From assembly GCA_002021875.1 (NCBI GenBank), contig CP018627.1, forward strand, positions 10,540,001 through 10,604,000: DNA of 64,000 bases, in the 5' to 3' direction. The translations under genes and the position numbers were made by a program. The notes under the pieces were generated by a model. That model saw only the letters and a program-made list of their open reading frames with translations. It searched no databases and was not told the DNA's origin. The stretch is from Streptomyces hygroscopicus (GTDB lineage Bacteria; Actinomycetota; Actinomycetes; Streptomycetales; Streptomycetaceae). Below are positions 21,098 through 39,874 of this stretch, in pieces; position 1 is the first letter of the stretch, and every line of letters starts with the position of its first letter.

Positions 21098-22063
21098 TCA
21101 GCGGCGGACGGCCAGCGACACCGCGAAGCGGCCCTGCGCGTCGGTCCACCAGCGCCGCGAGTCCATCCCCGCGGCGGCCAGTTCGGCCCGCACCTTCTCC
21201 TCCCGGAACTTGCTGGACACCTCCGTACGGACCTCCTCCCCGGCCTCGAAATGGACCGCGAGATCCATGGCGGGGATCTTCGCCGTGAGGTCCTTACGGG
21301 CCCTCAGCCGCATCTCGATCCACTCCTCCTCGGCGTTCCACACCGCCACGTGGTCGAAGTCGGAGGGGTCGAAGTCGGCGCCCAGTTCGCGGTCGAGCAC
21401 CGCCAGCACGTTCTTGTTGAACGCCGCGGTGACCCCCTGTGCGTCGTCGTAGGCGGAGACCAGCGTGGCCTCGTCCTTGACCAGGTCGGTGCCGACCAGC
21501 AGCGCGTCGCCGGGCTCGAGCAGATCGCTCACCGAGGCGTAGAAGGCGGCCCGCTCGGCCGGCAGCAGATTGCCGATCGTGCCGCCGAGGAAGGCCAGCA
21601 GCCTTGGACCCGGCGTGTCGTCGGGCAGCGCGAGCCCGTTCATGAAGTCGGCGACCAGCGCGTGCACCGTCAGCCGTGGATGCTCGGCCAGCAGGGCCTC
21701 CCCGGCCAGTTCCAGTGCGCTCTCGCTCACGTCGACGGGGACGTAGACGCGCAGATCCGGCAGCGCCCGGATCAGATGGCGAGTCTTCTCGGAGGAGCCG
21801 GAGCCCAGTTCCACCAGGGTGCGGGCCCCGGTGGCGTCGGCGATCTCCGCCGCGCGGGCGATGAGGATCTCCCGCTCGGCACGGGTCGGGTAGTACTCCG
21901 GCAGCCGGGTGATCTCTTCGAAGAGCGCGCTTCCCCGGGCGTCGTAGAACCACTTGGGCGGAAGCTGTTTGGGGGTGCTGGTCAGCCCGTCGGCCACATC
22001 GGCGCGCAGGGCGGCCGCGGTGGCATCGGCGGGCAGGGTGCGAGTGACGGTGAAGGGGCTCAA
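21098..22063 (-). CDS. egtD: L-histidine N-alpha-methyltransferase EgtD
   Basis: A 321-residue SAM-dependent enzyme that trimethylates histidine to hercynine, the first committed step of ergothioneine synthesis. Family marks are FYDARGSALFEEITRLPEYY (about 39-58), SAM loop LVELGSGSSEKT (about 83-94), FLGGTIGN, and the C-terminal SSKFREEKV with RWWTD. It is the last gene of the egtABCD operon and overlaps egtC by 4 bp (ATGA), so translation is coupled. Confidence 0.96.
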   Translation of the reverse strand: MSPFTVTRTLPADATAAALRADVADGLTSTPKQLPPKWFYDARGSALFEEITRLPEYYPTRAEREILIARAAEIADATGARTLVELGSGSSEKTRHLIRALPDLRVYVPVDVSESALELAGEALLAEHPRLTVHALVADFMNGLALPDDTPGPRLLAFLGGTIGNLLPAERAAFYASVSDLLEPGDALLVGTDLVKDEATLVSAYDDAQGVTAAFNKNVLAVLDRELGADFDPSDFDHVAVWNAEEEWIEMRLRARKDLTAKIPAMDLAVHFEAGEEVRTEVSSKFREEKVRAELAAAGMDSRRWWTDAQGRFAVSLAVRR

Positions 22064-22815
22064 CGGGAAGCCTCCTTAAGGGCGGTGAGCAGTACATCGT
22101 TGCGGGTGGCGGTGAGCAGGGTGCGGTCGGGGACCTCCGTCCAGCCGGGGTCCTGGTCGTACGGCTCGGAGGCCACCACCACGCCCCGGTCCGGTTCGGC
22201 CAGGTACCACAGCGTGTCGCCCCAGGCGGTGGCGGCGATGGTCTCCCCGTCCATGAGCAGCAGGTTCAGCCGTGAGTCGGGGGACGCACCGGCGAGCTGC
22301 TCGACGGCCTCGGCCAGCGCCTCCGGCGGCTCGTGGCCCAGCCGCAGCCGGCGCAGCACCAGCGCCCAGACGAACGCCGAGTCACACCGCGCCTCCAGGC
22401 CGAGCAGATCCGCGGGCGGCAGGGAGGCGGCGAGGTCCGCGACCGCGTGCGGCCAGTCGCGGATCGCCCCGTTGTGGCTGAACAACCAGGTCCCGGCGGC
22501 GAACGGCGAGGCGCCCGCCTCACCGTCCGCGCTCGCCTCGGTGGCGTCCCTTACGGCGGCCATCAGCGCCCCGGTCCGCACCACGCGGGCGAGGTCGGCG
22601 AACGACAGATCGCCCCAGATGGGCCCGGCGCGGCGGTAGCGCGCGGGCACCGGGTCGCCCGACGCGTACCAGCCGACGCCGAACCCGTCGGCGTTGACCG
22701 TGCCGTGCGCCTGCCGCCGCGGCGCCCACGACTGCCGGAACAGGCTGTGCTCGGGCGCCATGACCACCTCGCCGATGGGGGTCCGCGGTCCGAGGTACGC
22801 CAGATGCCTGCACAT
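22060..22815 (-). CDS. egtC: Ergothioneine biosynthesis amidohydrolase EgtC
   Basis: A 251-residue class II glutamine-amidotransferase-type (Ntn) hydrolase. The start is the ATG overlapping the egtB stop (TGATG), giving the mature N-terminal nucleophile Cys2 in MCRHLAYLG. GFGVGWY, LFSHNGAI and SEPYDQDPGW follow as in the family. EgtC removes the glutamate from gamma-glutamyl hercynylcysteine sulfoxide. It is translationally coupled to egtB upstream and egtD downstream. Confidence 0.95.
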   Translation of the reverse strand: MCRHLAYLGPRTPIGEVVMAPEHSLFRQSWAPRRQAHGTVNADGFGVGWYASGDPVPARYRRAGPIWGDLSFADLARVVRTGALMAAVRDATEASADGEAGASPFAAGTWLFSHNGAIRDWPHAVADLAASLPPADLLGLEARCDSAFVWALVLRRLRLGHEPPEALAEAVEQLAGASPDSRLNLLLMDGETIAATAWGDTLWYLAEPDRGVVVASEPYDQDPGWTEVPDRTLLTATRNDVLLTALKEASR

Positions 22816-24143
22816 CAGGACGCGTCCCGAGCGGTGCGGAAACCCGAGAAGATCTGGCGGCGGACCGGCAGGTCCCAGTTGCGGAACGTGCCCCGGCAGA
22901 CGACCTCGTCCACCGCGAAGGAACCGCCGCGCAGCACCTTGTGCGCCGGGCCGAAGAAGACTTCCGAGTACTCGCGGTACGGGAAGGCACGGAACCCCGG
23001 GTAGGGCAGGAAGTCGCTCGAGGTCCACTCCCACACATCGCCGATCAGCTGCCGCACCCCCAGTGGGGAGGCGCCCTTCGGATAGCTTCCCGCCGGTGCG
23101 GGCCGCAGATGGCGCTGGCCGAGGTTGGCCTGGTCGGGGGCCGGGTCGGCGTCGCCCCACGGATAGCGCCGGGACCGGCCGCTGTCCGGGTCGTGGCGGG
23201 CGGCCTTCTCCCACTCCTCCTCGGTCGGCAGCCGCCGCCCCGCCCAGCGGGCATAGGCGTCCGCCTCGTACCAGCTCACATGCACCACCGGCTCGTTGGG
23301 CGGCACCGGCTCGGTCACCCCGAACCGGCGGCGCAGCCACTGCCCGCCCTCGCGCCGCCAGAACAGCGGGGCGGCGAGCCGGTGCTCCTGGATGTGGGCC
23401 CAGCCCTCGGCCGTCCACCAGCGCCGCTCGCCGTAGCCGCCATCGGCTATGAACCGCTCGTACGCGCCGTTGGTCACCGGTGTGGTGTCGATGTGGAAGG
23501 CCGGGACCAGCCGGTGGTGCGCGGGCCGCTCGTTGTCCAGGGCCCAGGGCTCGGTCGAGGTGCCCATCGTGAACGGGCCGCCCGGGATCAGCACCTCCTC
23601 GGGCAGCGCCGCGCCGTCCGCCGTGTCGGGCGGCGGCGGGGCGGTGAGCGCGGCGGGTCCGCGGCGTAGCTGGTGGGTGATGAGCATCGTCTCGTCGTGC
23701 TGCTGCTCATGCTGCGCGATCATGCCGAAGGCGAAGCCCGCGTCGACCAGCGGGGCGCCGCGCAACTCGATCCGCTCGAGGATGTCCAGCACCCGGCCGC
23801 GCACCTCGTGGACATAGCCGCGGGCCTCGGCGGGCGCCAGCAGCGGCAGGGCGGGCCGCTCGGCGCGCGGATGCTCGAAGGCGTCGTAGATCGAGTCGAT
23901 CTCGGGGCGCAGCGCGTCACGGCCGCCGACCGCGCGCAGCAGCCACTGCTCCTCCTGGTTCCCGATATGCGCCAGATCCCAGACCAGCGGGGACATCAAG
24001 GGGGAGTGCTGGGCGGTGAGGTCGGGCTCGTCCACGCACGTGGTGAGGGCGTGGGTACGGTCGCGCGCGGTGCGCAGTGCCAGCTCGGCGCGCCGGCGCA
24101 GCGCCTCGGGATCGATGGTGAGGTCGGAATCGGGGGCGGTCAT
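22815..24143 (-). CDS. egtB: Hercynine oxygenase EgtB
   Basis: A 442-residue non-heme iron sulfoxide synthase. The N-terminal DinB-like domain carries the iron ligands H59 and the H145-x3-H149-x-E151 motif (AQHEQQHDE). The C-terminal formylglycine-enzyme (FGE-sulfatase) fold includes GGPFTMG, YPWG and LIGDVWEWTSSDF. It joins hercynine to gamma-glutamylcysteine with O2. The iron-binding residues are all present, so it is probably active. Its start overlaps the egtA stop by 4 bp. Confidence 0.96.
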   Translation of the reverse strand: MTAPDSDLTIDPEALRRRAELALRTARDRTHALTTCVDEPDLTAQHSPLMSPLVWDLAHIGNQEEQWLLRAVGGRDALRPEIDSIYDAFEHPRAERPALPLLAPAEARGYVHEVRGRVLDILERIELRGAPLVDAGFAFGMIAQHEQQHDETMLITHQLRRGPAALTAPPPPDTADGAALPEEVLIPGGPFTMGTSTEPWALDNERPAHHRLVPAFHIDTTPVTNGAYERFIADGGYGERRWWTAEGWAHIQEHRLAAPLFWRREGGQWLRRRFGVTEPVPPNEPVVHVSWYEADAYARWAGRRLPTEEEWEKAARHDPDSGRSRRYPWGDADPAPDQANLGQRHLRPAPAGSYPKGASPLGVRQLIGDVWEWTSSDFLPYPGFRAFPYREYSEVFFGPAHKVLRGGSFAVDEVVCRGTFRNWDLPVRRQIFSGFRTARDAS

Positions 24144-25396
24144 GGCCGTCCCTCCTTACCGGTGAGAGGAGCGAGCAGATCGTCGGCGGGACATCGGCCG
24201 CGGGCCACATAGCGGTCGGTGAAGGCGGCGACGGCGGCGGTGATGGCGGGGGAGGCGCCGAGGCGGGGCAGCGCGTCCAGCGCCGTGGCGAAGCAGCTGA
24301 CGGCGGCGGCGCGCAGCTCGGGTTCGGCCAGACCGTGGCGCGCGGCGGCCCGCCACAGCCGATTGCCAGGTGCGGGGCGTGCGCCCGCCGTCTCGGCGAG
24401 CGGCTTCACCACCCGGTAAACCGTTTCAGCAGCCTGCGGATCGTCGAAGAGGGCGACCGTGACGGCGAGGGGGACGATCCAGCCGTCTTCACCGCTCTGC
24501 GCGTCGATCATGCGCAGTTCCAGATGGCCGCGCGGGCGGACAGGGGGAAAGAGCGTGGAGACGTGGAAGTCGAGATCGTCGAGGGTGGGCGGCCGGGGCA
24601 GCCCCGTCCGGGCCCACTGGCGGAAGGTCACCCCGGACGGCACCGCCCAGGGCCCCTTCTCGTCCCGGATGGCCATCACGGGCGCGTCCAGCACATAGTG
24701 CGCCCAGGCGGTGCGGGGATCCCCGCCGTCGGGCGGGGCGTGGGTGCGGCCGGGCTCCATCGCCGTCCACACCGCCTGCCGGGTGGAGCGGTAGCCCGTG
24801 GGGCGGCCCTGGCGCAGCGGCGAGTTGGCGAACGCGGCGGTCAGCACCGCGCCCAGCAGATGGGCGAGCCGCCAGCGCCGTGCCATACCGAGCGGTCCGG
24901 GCTCCTCGTGTCCGGCGTCCACGCAGACCTGCACGGAGGCGGTGCTGCACATCATGGAGCGCCCGGCCGGCCCCCGGCGGTCGAAGTAGGTCTCCATGCA
25001 TTCGTACCGGGGTGTGGTGAGGAACCGTCTCGGCGGGCGCCAGGGGTCGTGGCCATGGCCGGCCAGGCCGAGGCCGAGCCCGGTGAGAAGGGACCGTACG
25101 AGGACCAGATCGGCGGCGGCGGACTCCACACACTCGGTGAGGGAGTCGGCCGGAAGGGAGCTGAGCTCCACCTGGCCGCCGGGTTCGAAGGTGATGGCGG
25201 ACCGCAGCGGCAGTCCGCGCAGGGCGGTGACCGCGGCTTCGAGCCGGGCCGCCTCGATGGGTCGTGCGGGGACGTGCGGGTCGTACAGGAGCCATTCGAG
25301 CTCGACTCCGATGCGGCGCGGCGGCCCTGTCTTGAAGCAGATGCCGTGCAGCCGGGCCTCCATCTCGGCCTCGCTGATCGCCTTGTCGTCGGGCAC
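24140..25396 (-). CDS. egtA: Glutamate-cysteine ligase EgtA
   Basis: A 418-residue ATP-dependent ligase of the GCS2 type that makes gamma-glutamylcysteine, the sulfur donor for ergothioneine. Family features include GVELEWLLYDP, ITFEPGGQVELSS, MMCSTASVQVCVDAG and HLELRMIDAQ. The frame stays open far upstream, but I place the start at the GTG at 25396, 4 bp after a GGGAGAGAG sequence and at the expected domain edge. First gene of the four-gene operon; egtE is not present. The 248-bp region to the divergent quinone oxidoreductase gene must hold its promoter. Confidence 0.93.
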   Translation of the reverse strand: MPDDKAISEAEMEARLHGICFKTGPPRRIGVELEWLLYDPHVPARPIEAARLEAAVTALRGLPLRSAITFEPGGQVELSSLPADSLTECVESAAADLVLVRSLLTGLGLGLAGHGHDPWRPPRRFLTTPRYECMETYFDRRGPAGRSMMCSTASVQVCVDAGHEEPGPLGMARRWRLAHLLGAVLTAAFANSPLRQGRPTGYRSTRQAVWTAMEPGRTHAPPDGGDPRTAWAHYVLDAPVMAIRDEKGPWAVPSGVTFRQWARTGLPRPPTLDDLDFHVSTLFPPVRPRGHLELRMIDAQSGEDGWIVPLAVTVALFDDPQAAETVYRVVKPLAETAGARPAPGNRLWRAAARHGLAEPELRAAAVSCFATALDALPRLGASPAITAAVAAFTDRYVARGRCPADDLLAPLTGKEGRP

Positions 25397-25644
25397 TGTC
25401 TCTCTCCCGTCCCGTTCCGGCAACGGCTCGCTGTGAAACGAGCCGATATGTCGCCGTCCACCTTTACCTGCCGACGCACCGGGCTCAAGGGTGCCTCCAG
25501 AGTTGCACAAGAGTTCATCCACCGCCGGGTGGGCCGGGCAGGATGGCTGACGGCCGTGGCGGTTCCGCTGCTCGTACCGACTGGTTAGTATGTGCGCCCG
25601 GCGCGGGTAACGCGTCCCGACGATCCGTTTGTGGAGGCCACCGG

Positions 25645-26649
25645 ATGCAGGCATGGCGAGTGCACGACAATGGCGAGCCGGGTGAGGTCATGCGCCTCGA
25701 CGACGTGCCCGATCCCCAGGCGGGACCGGGACAGCTGCTGCTGCGGGTCCGGGCCGTCGACGTCAACTTCCCCGACGCACTGCTGTGCCGCGGCCAGTAC
25801 CAGGTGCGGCCGCCCCTGCCGTTCACCCCCGGTGTCGAGGTGTGCGGCGAGGTCGTCGCCGTCGGCGAGGGCGCCGAGGGCGAGGTGGGCTCCCGCGTCC
25901 TGGCCACGCCCACGCTCCCCGCGGGCGGCTTCGCCGAGCTGGTGCCCGTCGAGGCGGCGAACGTGCTGCCCGCGCCCGACGCCCTGGACGACGCCGAGGC
26001 CGCGGCGCTGCACATCGGCTACCAGACCGGCTGGTTCGGCCTGCACCGCAGGGCCCGCCTCCAGTCCGGCGAAACGCTTCTGGTGCACGCCGCCGCGGGC
26101 GGGGTCGGCAGCGCCGCCGTCCAGCTCGGCAAGGCGGCCGGGGCGAGGGTGATCGGGGTCGTCGGCGGCGACGACAAGGCCCGGGTCGCCCGCGAGCTCG
26201 GCTGCGACCTCGTCCTCGACCGGCGCGCCGATGACATCGTGGCGGCCGTCAAGGAGGCCACCGGCGGACGCGGCGCGGACGTCGTCTACGACCCGGTCGG
26301 CGGCGACGCCTTCGTCAAGTCCGTCAAATGCGTCGCCTTCGAGGGCCGCATCGTGGTCGTCGGCTTCGCCAGCGGCGTCGTCCCCCAGGCCGCCCTCAAC
26401 CACGCCCTGGTCAAGAACTACGCCATCCTCGGCCTCCACTGGGGCCTGTACAACACCCACGACCCGGCCGCGATCCTCGCCTGCCACGAGGAGCTGACCA
26501 AGCTCGCCGCACAGGGCACCGTCAAGCCGCTGGTCAGCGAGCGCGTACCGCTGGCAGGCGCGGCCGACGCCGTGCAGCGCGTCGCCGACGGCGTGACCAC
26601 CGGCCGTGTGGTGGTCCTCCCCGGGCAGTCCGCCGGAGGCGCCCGATGA
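25645..26649 (+). CDS. NADPH:quinone oxidoreductase family protein (zinc-free MDR)
   Basis: A 334-residue medium-chain reductase. It has the GroES-like N-terminal domain (FTPGVEVCGEVVAVG) and the NADPH loop AAAGGVGSAAVQLG near residue 150, but lacks the catalytic and structural zinc cysteines. The motif HWGLYNTHDP fits the actinobacterial group usually found beside acyl-CoA dehydrogenases. The start at 25645 has GGAGG 9 bp upstream. It leads a three-gene operon, overlapping the first acyl-CoA dehydrogenase gene by 4 bp, and probably acts on enones or enoyl-thioesters formed in that pathway; the substrate is unknown. Confidence 0.88.
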   Translation: MQAWRVHDNGEPGEVMRLDDVPDPQAGPGQLLLRVRAVDVNFPDALLCRGQYQVRPPLPFTPGVEVCGEVVAVGEGAEGEVGSRVLATPTLPAGGFAELVPVEAANVLPAPDALDDAEAAALHIGYQTGWFGLHRRARLQSGETLLVHAAAGGVGSAAVQLGKAAGARVIGVVGGDDKARVARELGCDLVLDRRADDIVAAVKEATGGRGADVVYDPVGGDAFVKSVKCVAFEGRIVVVGFASGVVPQAALNHALVKNYAILGLHWGLYNTHDPAAILACHEELTKLAAQGTVKPLVSERVPLAGAADAVQRVADGVTTGRVVVLPGQSAGGAR

Positions 26650-30792: not shown

Positions 30793-30987
30793 ATGGCCAT
30801 TTCCATCTCCGTGGTCCTGCTGCTTCTGATCCTGGCGGTGGTCTTCCTCCGCAGCGGCGGATTGCGCATCTCGCATGCGCTGGTCTGTGTGACGCTGGGC
30901 TTCTACCTGGCGAGCAGCAGCGTGGCGCCCACCATTTCCGAGGGGCTCGCCGCCACCGCGGACGTGGTCAGCAGCGTCCGCCCCTGA
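30793..30987 (+). CDS. Small membrane protein beside the encapsulin pair
   Basis: A 64-residue protein with two hydrophobic segments: about residues 3-20 (ISISVVLLLLILAVVFL) and about 28-44 (HALVCVTLGFYLASSSV). It has an excellent ribosome binding site (GAGGAGG). I do not recognise a named family. It is convergent with the tandem encapsulin genes (37 bp to the nearer stop) and follows the GMC gene. The position suggests, but does not show, a link to the shell proteins. Confidence 0.7.
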   Translation: MAISISVVLLLLILAVVFLRSGGLRISHALVCVTLGFYLASSSVAPTISEGLAATADVVSSVRP

Positions 30988-31023: not shown

Positions 31024-32412
31024 TCAGCGGCCGATCTCGACGTCCTCCAGCACACCGACCGCATCGGGCACCAGAATCGCCGCCGAGTAGTAGGCGGAGA
31101 CCAGATAGGACGTCACGGCCTGCTCGCTGATGCCCATGAACCGGACGTTCAGACTGGGCTCGTACTCGTCCGGGATACCGGTCTGATGCAGACCGATGAC
31201 CCCCTGGCTCTCCTCCCCGGTGCGCATCGCCAGGATGGAGCTGGTGCCGGACTCGCTGATCGGGATCTTGTTGCAGGGCAGCAGCGGAACCCCGCGCCAC
31301 GCCCGCACCGCGACCCCGGCCACCTCGATGCCCTGCGGATACAGACCACGGTCGCTGCACTCACGCCCGAAGGCGGCGATGGTGCGCGGATGCGCCAGCA
31401 GATACTGGGTCTTGCGGCGCCGTGCCAGCAGCTCATCGAGGTCGTCGGGGGTGGGTGGTCCGCTGCGGGTGTGGATGCGCTGGGAGAGGTCGGCGTTGTG
31501 CAGCAGGCCGAATTCGCGGTTGTTGACGAGCTCGTGTTCCTGGCGTTCGCGCAGGGCTTCGATGGTGAGGCGGAGTTGCTGCTCGACCTGGTTCATGGGC
31601 TCGTTGTAGAGGTCGGCGACGCGGGTGTGGACGCGGAGCACGGTCTGGGCCACGCTCAGCTCGTACTCGCGCGGCGCCAGCTCGTAGTCCACGAACGTGC
31701 CCGGCAGGACCGGCTCACCCGCGTGGCCGGACGCGACGGCGATATCGGCCTCACCGCGCCGGTTCTGAGCGGGCGTGGACCGCTCCGAAAGCCCCTGGAG
31801 ATGGTCGCGCAGCGCATCGGAGCGGTCGGCGGCCTCCTGGACGACGCGGCGGGGGAGAGTGAGCACCGTGGTCCGGGTGACGGCCCGGACGCTGAACTCC
31901 CAGGTGTGCTCCGGACCGGTCAGCACCGCGTCGCCGAAGTACTCCCCGTCGGCCAGCACCGCCAGCGTGGTGCCCTCGTCATAGGCGCCGGGGGCGACCT
32001 GGCGGACCTTGCCGTGGGCGATCAGGAACACCTGGTCGGCCGGGCGGCCCGCCTCCACCAGCACATCCCCGGGCGCGTACTCACGCTGGACGCACCCGTC
32101 GGCCAGCGATTCCAGTACGGCGGTGTCCCCGAAGCCGCGCAGCGTCGGCAGCTCGCCCAGCTCCGGTGGGATGACCCGCACCTGCGATCCGGTGCTGATG
32201 AACTCCACCCGACCGTCTCCGACCGTGTACGTCAGTCGGCGGTTCACCCGGTACGTACCGGCCGACACCTGCACCCAGGGGAGGACGCGCAGCAGCCACC
32301 GGGAGGAGATGGCCTGCATCTGCGGAACGGACTTGGTGGTGGTCGCCAGATTCCGTGCGGCGGCCGTGCCCAGACTCAGCGGCTGCTCACCGGACTCCAC
32401 GGAAGTGGTCAT
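31024..32412 (-). CDS. Family 2B encapsulin shell protein, EshA-like (copy B)
   Basis: A 462-residue HK97-fold shell protein with an inserted cyclic-nucleotide-binding domain. The N-terminal arm reads [20 protein letters not shown]. The cNMP-like domain spans about 95-210 ([29 protein letters not shown]). The shell fold resumes with [39 protein letters not shown] and ends [16 protein letters not shown]. EshA of S. griseus, which affects sporogenic growth, belongs to this family; relatives form icosahedral shells around enzymes. The cNMP pocket lacks the usual Arg-Ser/Thr-Ala. It is the second gene of a tandem pair, 71 bp after copy A, and shares a nearly identical internal tract with it. No terpene synthase is nearby. 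Confidence 0.92.
31438..31717. repeat. Near-identical tract shared with encapsulin copy A (gene conversion)
   Basis: This 280-bp block matches 32901-33180 with about six mismatches by my alignment (offset 1463 bp). Sequence on both sides diverges sharply. It encodes the shell region from the GEPVLPGTF area to the TPDDLD area. It also uses more T- and A-ending codons than its surroundings. Confidence 0.85.
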
Positions 32413-32483
32413 AAGTGCTCATCACCCATTTCGGTAGATCTTCGGGAAGGTATGCGAAGGCCACGGGCCCGGTCGGGCGGGCG

Positions 32484-33896
32484 TCAGAGTCCGATTTCCA
32501 CGTTCTCCAGAATTCCGAGCGCGTCCGGGACGAGCACGGCCGCGGAATAGTAGGCGCTGACGAGATACGAGATGATGGCCTGCTCGCTGATTCCCATGAA
32601 CCGCACCGAGAGGCTCGGCTGGTATTCGTCGGGAATTCCGGTGCGGTGCAGTCCGATGACCCCCTGGTTCTCCTCCCCGGTGCGCAGGACGAGAATCGAG
32701 GTCACTCCGCTCCGGGACACCGGAATCTTGTTGCACGGGAAGATGGGCACGCCCCGCCAGGCCGGCATCGCATGGCCGTTCACCTCCGTGGGCTGCGGGG
32801 AGATGCCACGGCTGTTGAACTCGCGGCCGATGGCCGCGATGGCGCGCGGATGCGCCAGGATCAGCCCCGGGTCCTTCCAGACGGTGGCCAGCAGCGCGTC
32901 GAGGTCGTCGGGGGTGGGTGGTCCGCTGCGGGTGTGGATGCGCTGGGAGAGGTCGGCGTTGTGCAGCAGGCCGATCTCGGGGTTGTTGACGAGCTCGTGT
33001 TCCTGGCGTTCGCGCAGGGCTTCGATGGTGAGGCGGAGTTGCTGCTCGACCTGGTTCATGGGCTCGTTGTAGAGGTCGGCGACGCGGGTGTGGACGCGGA
33101 GCACGGTCTGGGCCACGCTCAGCTCGTACTCGCGCGGCGCCAGCTCGTACTCCGCGAACGTGCCCGGCAGGATCGGCTCGCCCGAATGTCCCGAGGCCAG
33201 TGCGATGGCGGCCTCCCCGTGCTCGTTCTGCTCGGCCTCCGGCGCCGAGCGCACCCCCTCCACATGCGCCCGCAGTCGCGGTGAACGGTCCAGCTGCTCC
33301 TCGAACTCCTGCCGGGGCAGGGCCAGCACCGTGCAGGACGTCACGGCCTTCACGGTGATGCCCCAGGTGCCCGCCTCGGCGGCGGTCAGCTCCGGCTCCC
33401 CGATGTGGTCGCCGCCGGCGGCCGAGCCGACCACCGCGGGCTCGTCGAACGCGCCCTCGGTCAATTTGTCGACCTTGCCATGGGCGATGAGGAGAAGCTC
33501 ATCGGCCGGGCGCCCGGCCTCGACCAGCACTTCGCCCGGCGCGAATTCCCGCTGGGCGAAGCGGTCCGCCAGGGCCCCGAGCACCGAGGTGTCCTCGAAA
33601 CCGCGCAGCAGCGGCAGCTCGCGCAGCTCGACCGGGATGACCCGCACCTCGGACCCGGTGGTGGTGAACTCCACCCGGCCGTCGCCGAGCGTATGGGACG
33701 CCCGGCGGTTCACACGATAGGAACCGCCCGGAACCTGCACCCACGGCAGCATGCGCAGCAGCCACCGGGAGCTGAGGCCCTGCATTTGCGGAACGGATTT
33801 GGTCGTCGTCGCCAGATTCCGCGCGGCCGCCGTGCCGAGACTCAACTGCGGCTGCGAATTTTCGGTACCGGAACCCGGTTCAACGGACGTCGTCAT
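32484..33896 (-). CDS. Family 2B encapsulin shell protein, EshA-like (copy A)
   Basis: A 470-residue paralogue of the downstream shell protein with the same order of parts: N-terminal arm ([20 protein letters not shown]), cNMP-like domain at about 100-215 ([31 protein letters not shown]), then the HK97 core to [16 protein letters not shown]. Outside the shared tract the two proteins differ most in the cNMP domain and in the loop after TPDDLD ([10 protein letters not shown] here, [10 protein letters not shown] in copy B). This would suit two shell subunits with different outer domains in one particle. It is the first gene of the pair; a 14-bp palindrome lies 91 bp upstream of its start and may control both. 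Confidence 0.92.
32901..33180. repeat. Near-identical tract shared with encapsulin copy B (gene conversion)
   Basis: Partner of the block at 31438-31717. The boundaries are sharp: upstream and downstream homology falls to ordinary paralogue level within a few bases. Confidence 0.85.
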
Positions 33897-34301
33897 CGTG
33901 AATGCTCACCCATCCCTGTACGGACCTTGAGGACAAATTCCGCTCGAGCAACTGCCAAGCTATCAGCGGACTTTGGGTGGTGCATTCACTCAAAAGAGTG
34001 CCTGGGTGATGGTTATGTCGGCGGTCGCGGACGGGTAAACACTCCGAATGCGCGCCGCGGGCCGACGGCCTTCGCGACCGACCCCGCCCGTTCACCCGGC
34101 GCCCGCGCACCTGTCGCGCCTCCCCGTGGGCGGGCACCGCGGGCCATCCCCTCGGCACCCCGGGAACGGTGAGGAAATGGCCGGGGACCACCCGTGGAAC
34201 TCTTCGCGCAGCACTGCCCTTTGGGCGCACGGCCGCCCGATACTCACTGGCGTCCATCCTGCGTATCCGGCACCGCGCCGGGACGAGAGCCGGGAGGCCC
34301 C
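33897..34301. other. 405-bp divergent intergenic region (encapsulin A / phosphodiesterase)
   Basis: Apart from the palindrome at 33987-34000 I see no gene here. It includes a relatively AT-rich stretch (about 33935-34020), unusual for this genome, that probably holds the encapsulin promoter. The frame of the phosphodiesterase is open upstream from 34194, but its real start has a ribosome binding site at 34302. Confidence 0.6.
33987..34000. promoter_or_regulatory. Palindromic operator candidate upstream of the encapsulin pair
   Basis: CACTCAAAAGAGTG has perfect 5-bp arms around AAAA. It lies 91 bp before the start codon of encapsulin copy A in an AT-rich patch, where a promoter for the two shell genes is expected. 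No regulator gene is adjacent, so the binding protein is unknown. Confidence 0.45.
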
Positions 34302-35195
34302 ATGGTCCGCCGTACACGCCGTGCCTTTGTCGTCACCCTCGGAGCCGCCCTGGCGGGCGGCGCGGCCGCGCCCGCGTTCGCGAGCACGGCCAGCTCGCTC
34401 GGCACCACGTCCGTCTCGAAGGACGGCCCGAAGGGCAAGCGGCCGCTGGCCAGAGCCCACGCCCACAACGACTACGAGCACCCGCGTCCGCTCCTCGACG
34501 CGCTCTCCCACGGCTTCGGCAGCGTCGAGGCCGACATCTGGCTGGTCGACGGCCAGTTGCTGGTCGCGCACGACGCCACCGACCTCGACCCCACCCGCAC
34601 CCTGGAGTCGCTCTACCTCGACCCGCTGGCCCGGCGGGTGAAGGCCAACGGCGGCCGGGTCTACCGCGGCTACGACCTGTCGTTGCAGCTGCTGATCGAC
34701 CTCAAGACCGCCGGGGAGGCCACCTACCTGGAGCTGGCCAAGCGGCTGCGCCACTACGGCCCCCTGTTCAGCGCCGCCTACGGCGGGGTGGACGGCCGGG
34801 TGCGCCGCGGCGCGGTGACGGCCGTCATCTCCGGCGACCGCGGCGCGCGGGCCCCCATGGAGGCCGAGAAGGTGCGCCACGCCTTCTACGACGGCCGTCT
34901 GGAGGATCTCGGCTCGGGTGTGCCCGCCTCCTTCATCCCGCTCATCAGTGCCGACTGGACCAAGACCTTCACCTGGACGGGGACCGGTCCGATGCCGCGG
35001 GCGGAGCGCGAGACGCTGCACCGCCTCGTCGCCTCCGCACACGCCGCCCGGCAGACCGTGCGCTTCTGGGCCACCCCGGACGTGGCCGGGCCGGAGCGCG
35101 ACGCCCTGTGGCGTGAGCTCCTGGCCGCCGATGTGGACTACCTCAACACCGACGACCTGGCCGGGCTGGAGGCGTTCCTGCGCGCCGCCCGCTGA
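34302..35195 (+). CDS. Tat-exported PI-PLC / glycerophosphodiesterase-like protein
   Basis: A 297-residue protein with a twin-arginine signal (TRRAFVV at about 5-11, then a hydrophobic stretch ending AAPAFA near residue 27). The TIM-barrel phosphodiesterase region starts AHAHNDYEHPRPLLDALSHG, with SVEADIWLV and LLVAHD providing the His, Glu and Asp expected for metal-dependent phospholipase C/GDPD enzymes. It is likely secreted folded and acts on phosphodiesters outside the cell. The start at 34302 is backed by GGGAGG; the longer open frame has no such site. A GNAT gene follows closely on the same strand. Confidence 0.82.
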   Translation: MVRRTRRAFVVTLGAALAGGAAAPAFASTASSLGTTSVSKDGPKGKRPLARAHAHNDYEHPRPLLDALSHGFGSVEADIWLVDGQLLVAHDATDLDPTRTLESLYLDPLARRVKANGGRVYRGYDLSLQLLIDLKTAGEATYLELAKRLRHYGPLFSAAYGGVDGRVRRGAVTAVISGDRGARAPMEAEKVRHAFYDGRLEDLGSGVPASFIPLISADWTKTFTWTGTGPMPRAERETLHRLVASAHAARQTVRFWATPDVAGPERDALWRELLAADVDYLNTDDLAGLEAFLRAAR

Positions 35196-35261
35196 CCCCT
35201 CGCGGGCGGCGGCCGGGAAAATCTCTCGCGCGCCGTCGCCCGCACCGCCATGCTGCCCCGC

Positions 35262-35750
35262 ATGCTCATCAGGACTGCCACCGCCGAGGACTGGCCCGCC
35301 ATCTGGGCCTTCCTGCGCCGCATTCTCGCCGCGGGCGAGACCTACACCTACCCTCGCGACCTGGACGAGGACCGGGCCCGCGACATCTGGATGCCGGAGC
35401 CCCCGAGCCGTACCGTCGTCGCCACCGACCCCGACGGTACGGTCCTGGGCTCGGCCAAGATGAACCCCAACCAGATGGGACCCGGCGCGCATATCGCGGG
35501 GGCCAGCTTCATGGTCGCGCCCGAGCAGGGCGGGCGCGGTGTGGGCCGGGCCCTGGGGGAGCATGTCCTGGAGTGGGCGCGCGCCGAGGGCTACAAGGCG
35601 ATGCAGTTCAACGCCGTGGTGGAGAGCAACACCCGGGCGGTGGCGCTGTGGCGCTCACTGGGCTTCGAGGTCATCGGCACCGTCCCCAAGGCGTTCGACC
35701 ACCCCACGAAGGGCTATGTGGGGCTGCACATCATGCATCGCTTCCTCTGA
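35262..35750 (+). CDS. GNAT family N-acetyltransferase
   Basis: A 162-residue acetyltransferase (166 if the ATG at 35250 is used; neither has a clear ribosome binding site, and MLIRTATAEDW is the usual start). The acetyl-CoA loop is VAPEQGGRGVGRALGEHV, followed by NAVVESNTRAVALWRSLGFE, both standard for the fold. The acceptor is unknown. It lies 66 bp after the phosphodiesterase gene, and its 3' end overlaps the convergent ROK regulator gene by 20 bp. Confidence 0.88.
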   Translation: MLIRTATAEDWPAIWAFLRRILAAGETYTYPRDLDEDRARDIWMPEPPSRTVVATDPDGTVLGSAKMNPNQMGPGAHIAGASFMVAPEQGGRGVGRALGEHVLEWARAEGYKAMQFNAVVESNTRAVALWRSLGFEVIGTVPKAFDHPTKGYVGLHIMHRFL

Positions 35751-37050
35751 CCCCGGCCGGCTCTCCGGCTCCGGCGGGGTCCCTGAACCCCGCCGGATCG
35801 TCGAGGACCGCCTGCACCACCGAGTTGGCCGCGCCCAGCAGTGGACCGTCCGGGCCGAGCCGGGAGACGGTCACCGCGCCGCTGCCCGGACGGGCCGGGT
35901 CGGTGAGCCGCCGTCCCAACTCCCGCTCCAGGGCGGGCAGCAGCCAGGGCGCCAGAGGCGTCAGCGCGCCGCCGAGCACCACCTTCTCCGGGTCCAGGAG
36001 GTTCACCGCGCCCGCGAGGGCGATCCCGAGCGCCGAGCCCGCGCCGCGCAGCGCACGCCGCACTCGCTGGTCGCCGCTCGCCGCCCTTACGGCCAGCACG
36101 GTGATACGGCCGCCGGGGCCCGGGTGCTGGGCCGCGGCCTGCTCGGGGGACAGGCCGCTCGCCCGCAGCACCGCCTCCTCGCCCGCGTACTGCTCCAGGC
36201 AGCCGCGGCCGCCGCAGGCGCACTCGGGCCCTTCGGGACGCACCGGCACATGGCCCAGCTCGCCCGCGAAACCGTGAGTGCCGCGCAGCAGTTGTCCCTC
36301 CAGCACGACCGCGGCGCCGATGCCGATCTCGGCCGAGACATGGATGAAGTCCTGGGGTGCCGGGTCGTGGCCGCCCCGCCACAGCTCGGCGAGCGCGCTC
36401 AGATTCGCCTCGTTGTCGACGGTGACCGGCAGCCCGGGCAGCGCCGCGCGCAGCTCGGGGCCGATGTCCACCCCCTCCCAGCCCAGGTTGGGGGCGCGGA
36501 CGACCAGCGACGAGTCCCGCGCCACCAGACCGGGCACCGCCACCGCGAGCCCCACCGGCCGCAGCCCGCCCAGCTCCGCCTCCGCCGCGACCTGCCGGAC
36601 CAGGGAGGAGAGCTGGGTGAGTACCGGGGCCGGTGCACGGTCGCGGTTCGCCGACGCTATCTCGGTGCGGGCCCGCACCCGCCCGGCGAGGTCCACCGCG
36701 CACACCGCGAGATGGTCCACCCCGATCTCCGCGCCGAGTCCGGCCGGACCGCGCTCATTGAGCTGCAGGGCGCTGCCGGGGCGGCCGACCGTACCGGGCC
36801 GGGAGGGGCCCAGCTCGACCAGCAGCCCGTCCCGGATCAGCTCGTCGACGAGCGTGGAGACGGCGGCCCGGGTGAGCCCCACGCGGGCCGCCACCGACGC
36901 ACGGGACAGCGGGCCGTGGGCGGCCACGGAGTGCAGCACGAGGGAGAGATTGCGCCGGCGCATCGCCTGCTGGGTGTTGGGCAGTGGCGCTGCCACCTGA
37001 ATCCGTCTCCTCTCGCCCGATCGCCTGATCCGCTCATTGTGCCGGGCCAC
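35731..37050 (-). CDS. ROK-family transcriptional regulator, probable xylose repressor
   Basis: A 439-residue protein. An N-terminal winged helix-turn-helix (about 30-85, GPLSRASVAARVGLTRAAVS) is followed by a ROK sugar-kinase-like domain (GIGAAVVLEGQLLRGTHGFA) with the zinc motif CACGGRGCLEQY near residue 275. ROK proteins of this layout (XylR, NagC, Mlc) bind operators until a sugar ligand releases them. It lies 75 bp downstream of xylB on the same strand and near xylA, so XylR is the obvious guess; the likely target is the xylA-xylB divergent promoter. Confidence 0.88.
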   Translation of the reverse strand: MARHNERIRRSGERRRIQVAAPLPNTQQAMRRRNLSLVLHSVAAHGPLSRASVAARVGLTRAAVSTLVDELIRDGLLVELGPSRPGTVGRPGSALQLNERGPAGLGAEIGVDHLAVCAVDLAGRVRARTEIASANRDRAPAPVLTQLSSLVRQVAAEAELGGLRPVGLAVAVPGLVARDSSLVVRAPNLGWEGVDIGPELRAALPGLPVTVDNEANLSALAELWRGGHDPAPQDFIHVSAEIGIGAAVVLEGQLLRGTHGFAGELGHVPVRPEGPECACGGRGCLEQYAGEEAVLRASGLSPEQAAAQHPGPGGRITVLAVRAASGDQRVRRALRGAGSALGIALAGAVNLLDPEKVVLGGALTPLAPWLLPALERELGRRLTDPARPGSGAVTVSRLGPDGPLLGAANSVVQAVLDDPAGFRDPAGAGEPAGVRGSDA

Positions 37051-37125
37051 TACGACACCGGTCCGCCCGGCCGCCGCGTACGGTGCTCACGCGAGCCGTA
37101 CGGCGTTTACGCGGGCCGTACGGCG

Positions 37126-38583
37126 CTACGCGTGGCGCAGCAGGCCGTCCGCGTCCGCCAGCACCCGGGAGAGCCGCTCCAGCGCCGCCTCGTCGCGGGG
37201 CACCGGACCGTAGGACGGCCCTTCGGCAGTCGCCCAGCGCCGCGCCACCGCCGCCGGGTCCTCGCCCAGCACCAGCCCCGCGGCCTGCGCGGCGGCCCCG
37301 AGGGCGACCAGCTCCCCGGCCCGGGGCACCTGAACCGGGCGTCCGCTCAGCCGCCGGACCGTCTCCCGCCACGCCGTGCCCTTGGCGCCACCCCCTATGA
37401 GCAACAGCGGGGCGTCGGGCGCCGCGTCCGCGTCCAGCACCTGGTCCAGCGCGGTGAGCAGGGCGAAGACGGCCCCGTCGTAGGCGGCCTGGAGCACCTG
37501 CCCCGGTGTGGTGTCGTGACGCAGACCGTGCAGCAGCCCCGAGGCGTGCGGCAGATGAGGGGTGCGCTCGCCGTCGAGGAACGGCAGCAGCACGGCCGAG
37601 CCGCCCGCGTCCACCGCCTCCCGGTCGCGGCCCAGCAGCGCCGCGATCCGGTCCACCGCGAGCGTGCAGTTGAGCGTGCACGCCAGCGGCAGCCAGGCGT
37701 CCCGCGTGTCGGCGAACCCCGCGACCACCCCGGTGGGGTCGGCGGGCCGGTGGGCCGAGACCGCGTAGACGGTGCCGGAGGTGCCCAGGCTGAGCACCGG
37801 CTGCCCCGGGCGCAGGCCGAGCCCCAGAGCGGCCGCCATGTTGTCGCCCGTGCCGGTGGCCACCAGGGCGCCGGTGGGCAGCGGCAGATCGGGCAGCTCC
37901 CGTACGGTCCCGGCGGCCTCGCCGTGGCGCAGCACACGCGGCAGCAGCTCGGGGGAGAGCCCGGCCCGGTCCAGGATCTCCTCGTCGTAGGACTCCGTGG
38001 CCGAGGACCACCAGCCGGTGCCCGAGGCGTCGCCCCGGTCGGTGGTTCCGTAGCCGGTGAGCCGCTCGGTGAGGTAGTCGTGGGGGAGTCGGACGGCCGC
38101 GGTGGCGCGGGCCGCCTCCGGTTCGTTCTCCCTGAGCCAGGCCCACTTGGTGACGGTGAAGGCGGGCGCGGGCACACTGCCGACCCGCTCCGCCCATGCC
38201 TTCGGGCCGCCCAGCTCCTCGATGAGCCGGTCGCGCTGCGGCGCGGAGCGCACATCGTTCCACAGCAGCGCGGGCCGCACCGAGCGGCCCGAGGCGTCCA
38301 GCGTGACCAGGCCGTGCTGCTGGCCGCCCACGGAGACCGCGGCCGCCTCCCGGGCCGGGCTGCCGCACTGGCGCAGCGCCTCGGTCAGCGCCTCCCACCA
38401 CTGCTCGGGGACGGACTCCTTACCGGTGCCGTCGCTGCCGCCGCCGACGGTGTGCGGGGCCTGTCCCCGGGCGACGACCGCGCCGGTCGCGGAGTCGACG
38501 ACGAGCGCCTTGGTCGCTTGCGTGGAGCTGTCCACGCCGACGACGAGCGGTCCTTGCGGCACGGGCACGGCTGCTGCTGCCAT
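37126..38583 (-). CDS. xylB: Xylulokinase
   Basis: A 485-residue FGGY kinase. The N-terminal phosphate loop is GVDSSTQATKALVVD (about 15-29), and the specificity region QQHGLVTLD and WNDVRS matches xylulokinases. The second phosphate site is SLGTSGTVYAVS and the adenosine motif is LIGGGAKGTAWRETV. It phosphorylates D-xylulose made by XylA to enter the pentose phosphate pathway. It is divergent from xylA with 118 bp between starts. It has only a short N-terminal leader and therefore no obvious encapsulin-targeting extension, although it lies 3 kb from the shell genes. Confidence 0.93.
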   Translation of the reverse strand: MAAAAVPVPQGPLVVGVDSSTQATKALVVDSATGAVVARGQAPHTVGGGSDGTGKESVPEQWWEALTEALRQCGSPAREAAAVSVGGQQHGLVTLDASGRSVRPALLWNDVRSAPQRDRLIEELGGPKAWAERVGSVPAPAFTVTKWAWLRENEPEAARATAAVRLPHDYLTERLTGYGTTDRGDASGTGWWSSATESYDEEILDRAGLSPELLPRVLRHGEAAGTVRELPDLPLPTGALVATGTGDNMAAALGLGLRPGQPVLSLGTSGTVYAVSAHRPADPTGVVAGFADTRDAWLPLACTLNCTLAVDRIAALLGRDREAVDAGGSAVLLPFLDGERTPHLPHASGLLHGLRHDTTPGQVLQAAYDGAVFALLTALDQVLDADAAPDAPLLLIGGGAKGTAWRETVRRLSGRPVQVPRAGELVALGAAAQAAGLVLGEDPAAVARRWATAEGPSYGPVPRDEAALERLSRVLADADGLLRHA

Positions 38584-38655
38584 CTCGCGCTCTCCCTTGT
38601 GTCCATGGGTGGTGCGGTGTGCGGGTGAAACGGGGCTTCCCCGGAATGCTCGCGC

Positions 38656-38690
38656 ATACTAATTTGTAAAGCGCCATGACGAAATAGGCG
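38656..38690. promoter_or_regulatory. Candidate ROK/XylR operator in the xylA-xylB intergenic region
   Basis: An AT-rich island within the 118-bp divergent spacer contains the imperfect inverted repeat ATTTGT ... ACGAAAT (about 38662-38684). ROK regulators typically bind AT-rich inverted repeats of this size. The position between the two xyl promoters and the nearby ROK gene support the call. Confidence 0.45.
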
Positions 38691-38701
38691 AGGGAGCCGC
38701 G

Positions 38702-39874
38702 ATGAGCTACAACCCCACCCCCGAGGACAGGTTCACCTTCGGACTGTGGACGGTCGGCTGGCAGGGCCGGGACCCGTTCGGGGACGCCACCCGCCCGGCG
38801 CTCGACCCCGTGGAGTCCGTGACCCGGCTCGCCGAACTCGGCGCGTACGGCGTCACCTTCCACGACGACGACCTCATCCCCTTCGGGGCCTCGGCGACCG
38901 AGCGCGAATCGCATATCAAGCGCTTCCGGCAGGCCCTGGACGCCACCGGGATGACCGTGCCCATGGCCACCACCAACCTCTTCACCCATCCCGTCTTCAA
39001 GGACGGCGCCTTCACCGCCAACGACCGCGATGTGCGCCGCTACGCGCTGCGCAAGACCATGCGCAACATCGACCTCGCCGCCGAACTGGGCGCCAAGACC
39101 TATGTGGCCTGGGGCGGCCGCGAGGGCGCGGAGTCCGGGGGTGCCAAGGACGTGCGCGCCGCGCTCGACCGGATGAAGGAGGCGTTCGACCTGCTCGGCG
39201 CCTACGTCACCGAGAAGGGCTACGATCTGCGCTTCGCCATCGAACCCAAGCCCAACGAGCCGCGCGGCGACATTCTGCTGCCGACCGTCGGCCACGCGCT
39301 GGCCTTCATCGAGCGGCTGGAGCGGCCCGAGCTGTACGGAGTCAACCCGGAGGTCGGCCACGAGCAGATGGCCGGGCTGAACTTCCCGCACGGCATCGCG
39401 CAGGCACTGTGGGCGGGCAAGCTCTTCCACATCGACCTCAACGGCCAGAACGGCATCAAGTACGACCAGGACCTGCGGTTCGGCGCGGGCGATCTGCGGG
39501 CCGCCTTCTGGCTGGTCGACCTGCTGGAGACGGGTGGCTACGAGGGTCCGCGCCACTTCGACTTCAAGCCCCCGCGCACCGAGGACATCTCGGGCGTCTG
39601 GGCCTCGGCGGCGGGCTGCATGCGCAACTACCTCATCCTCAAGGAGCGGGCGGCCGCCTTCCGCGCCGACCCCGAGGTCCAGGAGGCGCTGCGCGCCTCG
39701 CGTCTGGACCAGCTGGGCGAGCCGACCCTCGGGGAGGGCGAGACCCCGGCGGCGCTGCTCGCGGACCGCACCGCCTTCGAGGACTTCGACGTCGAGGCGG
39801 CCGCCGAGCGCGGTATGGCCTTCGAGCGCCTGGACCAGCTCGCCATGGACCATCTGCTCGCCGCGCGCGGCTGA
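38702..39874 (+). CDS. xylA: Xylose isomerase
   Basis: A 390-residue enzyme of the short (class I) actinobacterial type. It has [11 protein letters not shown] near residue 54 (catalytic His), [24 protein letters not shown] (metal-binding Glu) near residue 180, [14 protein letters not shown] (metal-binding Glu and His), HIDLNGQ and [11 protein letters not shown]. It interconverts D-xylose and D-xylulose. The start follows GGGAG 5 bp upstream. It is expressed divergently from xylB and ends before a very strong hairpin. Confidence 0.96.

Follow-up and report, generated by a model that had tools for sequence, protein, structure and literature searches.

The stretch analysed here, referred to as the window, comprises 64,000 nucleotides of the Streptomyces hygroscopicus genome (assembly GCA_002021875.1, contig CP018627.1, forward-strand positions 10,540,001 to 10,604,000) and contains two adjacent genes for encapsulin shell proteins of Family 2B. 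Both lie on the minus strand: the upstream gene, Enc1, occupies 32484..33896 (470 aa) and the downstream gene, Enc2, 31024..32412 (462 aa), leaving a gap of 71 bp. Both proteins match the SrpI-like shell family PF19307 (E-values 1e-141 and 2e-135), and N-terminal to this part each carries a PF00027 cyclic-nucleotide-binding (cNMP) domain (E-values 1e-14 and 2e-12), which Pfam places at residues 116-204 of Enc1 (33285..33551, minus strand) and residues 110-197 of Enc2 (31822..32085, minus strand). A previous reading of the bare sequence (the original prediction) had described two same-strand genes 71 bp apart, each with a shell and a cNMP-like domain, and the Pfam matches confirm this. In both genes the cNMP-like domain follows the N-arm region and precedes the PF19307 part, a position assigned to the E-loop in PMC12407261. 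Both N-arms contain the motif LGTAAAR, located by a pattern search of the genome at 33820..33839 in Enc1 (genome positions 10573820-10573839) and at 32354..32373 in Enc2 (10572354-10572373), again on the minus strand.

The best-matching solved structures are 9bje for the upstream gene (716 bits) and 9bix for the downstream gene (692 bits), nearly over the full length. Both entries bear the PDB title 'Crp/Fnr family transcriptional regulator'. The sequence of 9bje carries LATVWK as well as motif 2 of Enc1, and from the agreement of such motifs with those given in PMC12407261 we infer that the two entries are probably the shells of S. lydicus. With PF19307 E-values of at most 2e-135 and 9bje and 9bix as homologues, both proteins are SrpI-related shells of the HK97 fold and belong to Family 2B. 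An AlphaFold2 model of Enc1 based on 32 aligned shells was too weak to judge the fold (mean pLDDT 55.9, pTM 0.35). Tryptophan W178 of Enc1 is invariant across the 32 aligned shells. Going by CAP numbering and an alignment by eye, this should be the position of the phosphate-binding arginine of CAP. According to PMC12407261, citing earlier work, the cNMP-like domain binds no cyclic nucleotides.

Two-component Family 2B systems are recognized by two shell genes within 10 kb that differ at diagnostic motifs, and this is what we found. The two proteins are 71% identical and differ at motif 1, as defined in PMC12407261 (TVWK in Enc1, 32874..32885; RRRK in Enc2, 31411..31422; both minus strand), and at motif 2. 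We are practically certain that the pair encodes a two-component Family 2B shell. In a quick shell tree without bootstrap, the Enc1 and the Enc2 proteins of Streptomyces pairs form separate groups (SH-aLRT 95 and 88, respectively), which makes the duplication look old. Shells of this kind are already published and the present pair adds a further case. The S. lydicus pair Sl-Enc1/Sl-Enc2 (PMC12407261) likewise has its two shell genes side by side, ordered as here and with the same domain plan, carries TVWK and RRRK at motif 1, belongs to the same xylulose kinase (XK) operon class and provides the corresponding subunit as best PDB match for each gene of the window. In the window, GNAT and GDPD genes lie between xylR and the pair, which may set it apart from the S. 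lydicus neighbourhood. Mixed T=1 shells were demonstrated for the S. lydicus pair, and because of the motif-by-motif match a mixed shell is expected here as well. The products of Enc1 and Enc2 thus very probably co-assemble, and their shells would, as was shown for S. lydicus, be irregularly tiled T=1 particles with the cNMP-like domains above the two-fold pores. The suggestion of a mixed Family 2B particle in the original prediction is supported by this orthology; its statement that the two shells differ in the cNMP domain is true but incomplete, as the A-domain motifs 1 and 2 differ too.

Opposite both shell genes we noticed matches to the Rfam family RF02735 (Sernc350) at 33349-33865 and 31898-32392 on the plus strand (125 and 103 bits, gathering threshold 50). 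Sernc350 is a cis-antisense RNA of Saccharopolyspora, known from deep sequencing and qRT-PCR of S. erythraea (PMC3827479). At other loci, too, the family has matches opposite shell genes (5 matches in 4 loci), so that homology of the shell coding sequences probably explains the signal, and we did not take it as evidence for an antisense RNA in the window.

The divergence of the two genes is not uniform along their length. We compared Enc1 and Enc2 at third codon positions in six regions, and in all 25 pair genomes analysed identity was highest in residues 241-332 of Enc1 (32901..33176, minus strand; limits set by eye), corresponding to residues 234-325 of Enc2 (31438..31713, minus strand). In the window genome the tract reaches an identity of 0.98 compared to 0.52-0.67 in the other five regions. 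Within the tract the identity of Enc1 to Enc2 of its own genome (0.98) exceeds that to the S. endocoffeicus orthologue (0.89), whereas in the other regions Enc1 is closer to the orthologue. Quartet site patterns between these two genomes gave a ratio of concerted to orthologous sites of 9:2 inside the tract and 0:111 outside (p = 4.5e-12). The test was significant (p < 0.05) in 14 out of 15 genome comparisons, the exception being G034 against G085 (p = 0.14); between G085 and G061 orthologous sites exceed concerted ones inside the tract, 7 to 5. The 25 genomes, the tract limits and the 15 comparisons, which partly overlap and of which 8 involve the window genome, were chosen by us. Outside Streptomyces the same peak of identity is found in Saccharopolyspora and a weak one in Solihabitans (0.82 versus at most 0.80).

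Recurrent gene conversion holds this one core tract of Enc1 and Enc2 alike. Selection on codon usage hardly explains it, since the paralogues agree within a genome yet differ between genomes. The tract stops just before diagnostic motif 1, and conversion keeps a shared core near-identical while the cNMP-like domains and the A-domain motifs diverge. Conversion of a single core tract fits subunits that are obliged to share one lattice. The original prediction had spoken of shared core surfaces; one core tract is kept nearly identical by conversion. A search of the open-licence literature for encapsulins combined with gene conversion yielded a single, unrelated paper, and the term 'gene conversion' is absent from the text of PMC12407261.

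The pair had been presented as lacking an obvious cargo gene, which holds for terpene cyclases, prenyltransferases and, among the scanned proteins, cysteine desulfurases. In the window (10,540,001-10,604,000) there is no terpene cyclase: the nearest of 5 PF19086 matches in the genome starts at 10,392,455, about 180 kb away within a 2-methylisoborneol synthase (2-MIBS) operon, and the pair is not an operon of the terpene cyclase type. Likewise no polyprenyl synthase lies in the window (nearest of 11 PF00348 matches at 10,212,140), and Pfam scans of 39 further window proteins, which do not cover every ORF, showed no cysteine desulfurase family. The statement does not hold for a block of sugar genes that had been overlooked (35731-39874), located 2-6 kb upstream of the pair: a xylR-like ROK repressor (35731..37050, minus strand, PF00480), the xylulose kinase gene xylB (37126..38583, minus strand, FGGY_N/FGGY_C) and the xylose isomerase gene xylA (38702..39874, plus strand, PF01261). 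With xylB 3.2 kb upstream of two nearby shell genes the pair is XK-type by published criteria. PMC8346489 lists 124 XK systems, every one with two shells, and in the published reading the shell takes part in xylose metabolism with the neighbouring kinase as its cargo. PMC12407261 calls XK the putative cargo and states that a native cargo has yet to be determined.

We examined this association in a genus draw of 121 genomes, 119 of which have a Family 2B shell. At least 20 of them bear the pair, as judged from a scan that scored up to 13 candidates per genome, and some of the other 101 may hold an unseen one. In 11 of the 14 pairs located at the xyl block the distance to xylB is at most about 6.3 kb, and in two genomes (G081, G085) xylB shares the strand of Enc1 and begins an operon-like arrangement 0.3-0.4 kb upstream of it, which speaks for the kinase as cargo. 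The same is true for 10 out of 23 named relatives with type-a pairs, in which xylB is found within 10 kb (two further loci were cut by contig ends). The remaining 13, however, have kept the pair between the GDPD and 64-aa genes, with no xylB orthologue anywhere in the genome (best matches 44-54% identity). This whole-genome search covered 14 genomes, the 13 picked for their xylB-less flanks and SAJ15 as a check, in which the orthologue was present. Three genomes of the draw (G033, G016, G057) also have the pair without an xylB orthologue and are probably among the 13. Furthermore, orthologous pairs occur at a second locus, where xylB does not adjoin them. Their neighbours there are different and partly shared, and neither xylB nor a cyclase was recognised among them (L028, L029, L039, L068, L072, L157, L337, L338, L339).

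Across the draw, xylB orthologues of at least 74% identity were present in 16 of 20 pair genomes and 58 of 101 others (p = 0.079). These 74 out of 121 were counted by hand, the cut being placed by eye where identities drop from 74% to 70%; with a cut at 68% the numbers are 16 of 20 and 62 of 101 (p = 0.13). Seven genomes (G017, G027, G049, G050, G054, G062, G069) have an xylB-like kinase of 58-60% identity, whose alignment contains one TAG. We also fetched 20 xylB neighbourhoods and set aside 3 from genomes whose pair lies elsewhere. In the other 17, from genomes not counted as pair-bearing, xylA always adjoins and xylR does so in 15, and no shell gene is found within 20 kb; 5 hold the GDPD and 64-aa genes, 3 of these also an NAGPA-like gene. 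XylB itself could be read in 21 of 30 loci (9 beside a pair) and has neither a terminal extension nor the sequence GLGT there, its termini being the same beside the pair and elsewhere, and in the window two genes on the opposite strand separate it from the pair. Taken together, a block without the pair, pairs without xylB, no significant link in presence and ordinary termini indicate that xylB is mostly a syntenic neighbour and probably not the cargo. As the best cargo reading the kinase was set aside on the grounds of synteny, presence/absence and the comparison of termini; we keep it as a very unlikely rival.

The other genes flanking the pair were considered too. Upstream lie a GDPD-like gene (34302..35195, plus strand, PF13653) and a GNAT acetyltransferase gene (35250..35750, plus strand, PF00583), and downstream, in convergent orientation, a gene for a 64-aa protein, by eye a putative membrane protein (30793..30987, plus strand, no Pfam match). 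In the genus draw, window included, the GDPD-like gene accompanies 9 of 9 type-a and 0 of 5 type-b pairs, and the 64-aa gene is near 13 of the 14 pairs at the xyl block, with no match in G029. Where the xyl block stands alone, with no shell gene, these two genes are found near it too, and neither was taken as cargo. Several relatives have an NAGPA-like gene (PF09992; L012 8629-9876) between GDPD and Enc1, with no counterpart at 33897-34301 of the window. It was rejected as well, since its product seems secreted (N-terminus by eye) and the pairs of G052, G091 and G066, the nearest genomes to the window in the draw, are not accompanied by a match to it.

The genome is a single contig of 12.0 Mb in which PF19307 matches three times: in the two genes of the pair and, at 10,393,749, in a third Family 2B shell gene, which the original prediction had missed together with its 2-MIB synthase. 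This single shell gene, about 180 kb distant, is directly upstream of the 2-MIBS and geranyl pyrophosphate (GPP) methyltransferase genes (L004 6892-10773). The two enzymes were named by eye; relatives of both adjoin single shells in other genomes. The operon resembles the pair in its shell family (63% identity to Enc1) and differs in having one shell with linked enzymes. For 2-MIBS-like cyclases the motif GPTGLGT, and for geosmin-synthase-like cyclases GPTGLGTSAAR, have been named as possible targeting motifs (PMC8346489). Among close relatives of the window no conserved terpene cyclase was found just outside the pair in the loci fetched, whereas a loss in the window alone would have predicted one. 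The single cyclase inside an examined Streptomyces pair belongs to a more distant relative (G084), and outside the Streptomyces pair group 21 of 80 loci have a cyclase-like match beside or between the shell genes.

The geosmin synthase (GS) of the window genome (6,530,964-6,533,297), 4.04 Mb from the pair, ends in HGPTGLGTSAARIPVPAGAVGARP, with GPTGLGTSAAR as C-terminal tail, which echoes the N-arm motif LGTAAAR of the shells. No shell gene lies within the 20 kb around it. At the DNA level GP[TS]GLGT matches the genome four times (GS, 2-MIBS and two frames unrecognised by eye; reversed control five). The pattern [LF]GT[SA]AAR also has four matches in the 12 Mb, namely Enc1, Enc2, the GS tail and one antisense, where the opposite gene reads by eye as a thymidylate kinase (reversed control two). 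An unlinked cargo had been predicted in general terms; geosmin synthase now provides a concrete candidate with a published motif, still unproven. Its tail would dock in the shell lumen, perhaps by imitating the N-arm motif, and the two-component shell would confine the enzyme.

A slightly looser DNA-level pattern, [PT]xGLGTxAAR, was found in 32 of the 121 genomes (reversed control 4 of 121). We classified 30 of its 37 matches, leaving five unclassified and placing G029 and G035 in GS by coordinates: 20 lie in GS, 8 in 2-MIBS-like cyclases and 2 in nothing recognised. GS tails were then read in 53 genomes that are not a random sample (20 with the pair and 33 others, 10 of the latter chosen by a tag-pattern match), the tail GPTGFGTSAAR of G027, G049, G050 and G062 being counted as tagged. 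A GLGT tail is present on GS in 19 of the 20 pair-bearing genomes. Around the core of 27 tails, which is fixed by construction because they were picked by GLGT, P occurs in 26, T in 22, both A in 24 each and R in 24. Seven of the 20 genomes showed no Family 2B shell besides the pair (G055, G029, G091, G084, G035, G070, G107; confirmed with all candidates scored for the last three). G113, in which the second shell is cut by a contig end, becomes the eighth if a third match (24 bits, cNMP domain) is disregarded. The GS tail is present in all 8.

Physical links between geosmin synthases and shells of this family are known from PMC8346489 and occur in G041, G048, G051 and G081; the cyclases of G041, G081 and G084 carry motifs of the GPTGLGT type. 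In G081 the GS gene is next to a shell gene of the Enc2 group. Between Enc1 and Enc2 of G084 there is a two-domain cyclase that shares 48% identity with GS and has its tag-pattern match in the middle of the protein between the domains. These systems differ from the window genome in that its tagged GS is 4.04 Mb away from the pair. In S. erythraea the tpc3 cluster, linked to geosmin synthesis, contains the cNMP-domain gene SACE_3976 and the terpene synthase SACE_3977 (PMC3827479); SACE_3976 is likely a shell gene, judging by the Rfam family of its antisense RNA, which matches opposite shell genes.

Several observations weigh against geosmin synthase as the cargo. The raw association of the exact tag pattern in GS tails with the pair is strong (11 of 20 pair genomes versus 10 of 101 others, p = 2e-5), but it clusters in few clades. 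Only 2 supported independent contrasts remain (4 on all branches), with which it is not and cannot become significant; the GS tree shows 4 changes of each trait, tag and pair. In addition 14 of the 33 other genomes read have a tagged GS, while 4 have an FGM-type variant and 15 no tag. The 14 include G045 and G100, with single shells lacking a recognised cargo, and G114, whose pair status is uncertain. In G027, G119 and G089 a tagged GS occurs although the only shell found is prenyl-synthase-linked. G033 has the pair with a degraded C-terminal tag, an internal GLGTSAAR remaining, and in G048 and G051 the GS adjoins a shell gene yet carries no C-terminal tag. In the window genome itself, the 2-MIBS shell could be the receiver instead. 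These weak contrasts, tails in pairless genomes, the decay in G033 and the untagged enzymes of G048 and G051 make geosmin synthase the leading candidate and not a demonstrated cargo; from tail and distribution we propose it as native cargo tentatively, with somewhat more doubt than conviction.

Beside these counts we noted a few individual cases. The variant tail FGM[SA]AAR occurs in some Streptomyces GS (L222, L287, L288, L289, L302) and may be a changed or decaying tag. A prenyl-synthase-like or 2-MIBS gene adjoins the shell gene in 24 of 28 single-shell neighbourhoods from other genomes; two single shells without recognised cargo, L160 (G100) and L353 (G045), come from genomes with a tagged GS, the former grouping with Enc2 in the tree and the latter lying outside the tree's sample. 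Only G007 and G097, out of 121 genomes, gave no match to a Family 2B shell. G007 has no geosmin synthase match at 1e-100 either, and the GS of G097 is incomplete and lacks the tail.

A guest other than geosmin synthase could also be encoded at a distance, for instance a prenyl synthase, a different terpene cyclase or some enzyme that carries no recognised tag. Further terpene cyclases and 11 PF00348 matches are present in the window genome, and according to PMC8346489 prenyltransferase cargos have no recognised motif. On the other hand, among the two sets of four tag-pattern matches those in frame and in recognised genes belong to GS, to Enc1 and Enc2, and to 2-MIBS, for which a separate shell exists; a tagless guest would be invisible to such patterns. 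We regard this alternative as unlikely.

EshA, a shell protein of this kind, has a developmental role. The pair might similarly have no fixed cargo and act as an EshA-like developmental factor, or it might mix with the third shell and share the cargo of the latter, mixing being conceivable at 63% identity. That the pair is the sole Family 2B shell found in 7 of 20 pair genomes (8 with G113) shows that the 2-MIBS shell is not needed, and motif 1 is conserved in the pair genes of all relatives read. This possibility appears quite unlikely to us.

The explanation we prefer overall, a two-component shell under gene conversion with xylulose kinase as bystander and geosmin synthase as cargo, is one that we accept with slightly less confidence than doubt. 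We are doubtful about its joint extension, according to which many Streptomyces would keep their geosmin synthase inside a two-component shell encoded megabases away, with a tail that mimics the N-arm and may compete with it for one site, with conversion continuing and with the XK class as a by-product of synteny.

Apart from the shell locus, genes for a histidine-specific methyltransferase, an FGE-sulfatase/DinB protein and a glutamate-cysteine ligase are adjacent at 21098-25654 of the window (Pfam). This arrangement resembles that of ergothioneine (egt) clusters.

While the pair belongs to a published kind, the conversion tract and the echo between GS tail and N-arm are results that we did not find in print. 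Neither the tract, the case against xylulose kinase and the proposal of an unlinked geosmin synthase nor the tail resemblance was found in the open-licence literature; the resemblance may already be described in the main paper on the 2-MIBS encapsulin. For the family, a gene-conversion signature offers a hint, obtainable from sequence alone, as to whether two shell paralogues share a lattice. The comparison of relatives suggests that the presumed XK cargo is a bystander and names geosmin synthase as a candidate replacement. If this is true, the enzyme producing geosmin, the smell of soil, is compartmentalised, and encapsulin cargo genes need not adjoin their shell genes, so that cargo lists based on operons would miss some of them.

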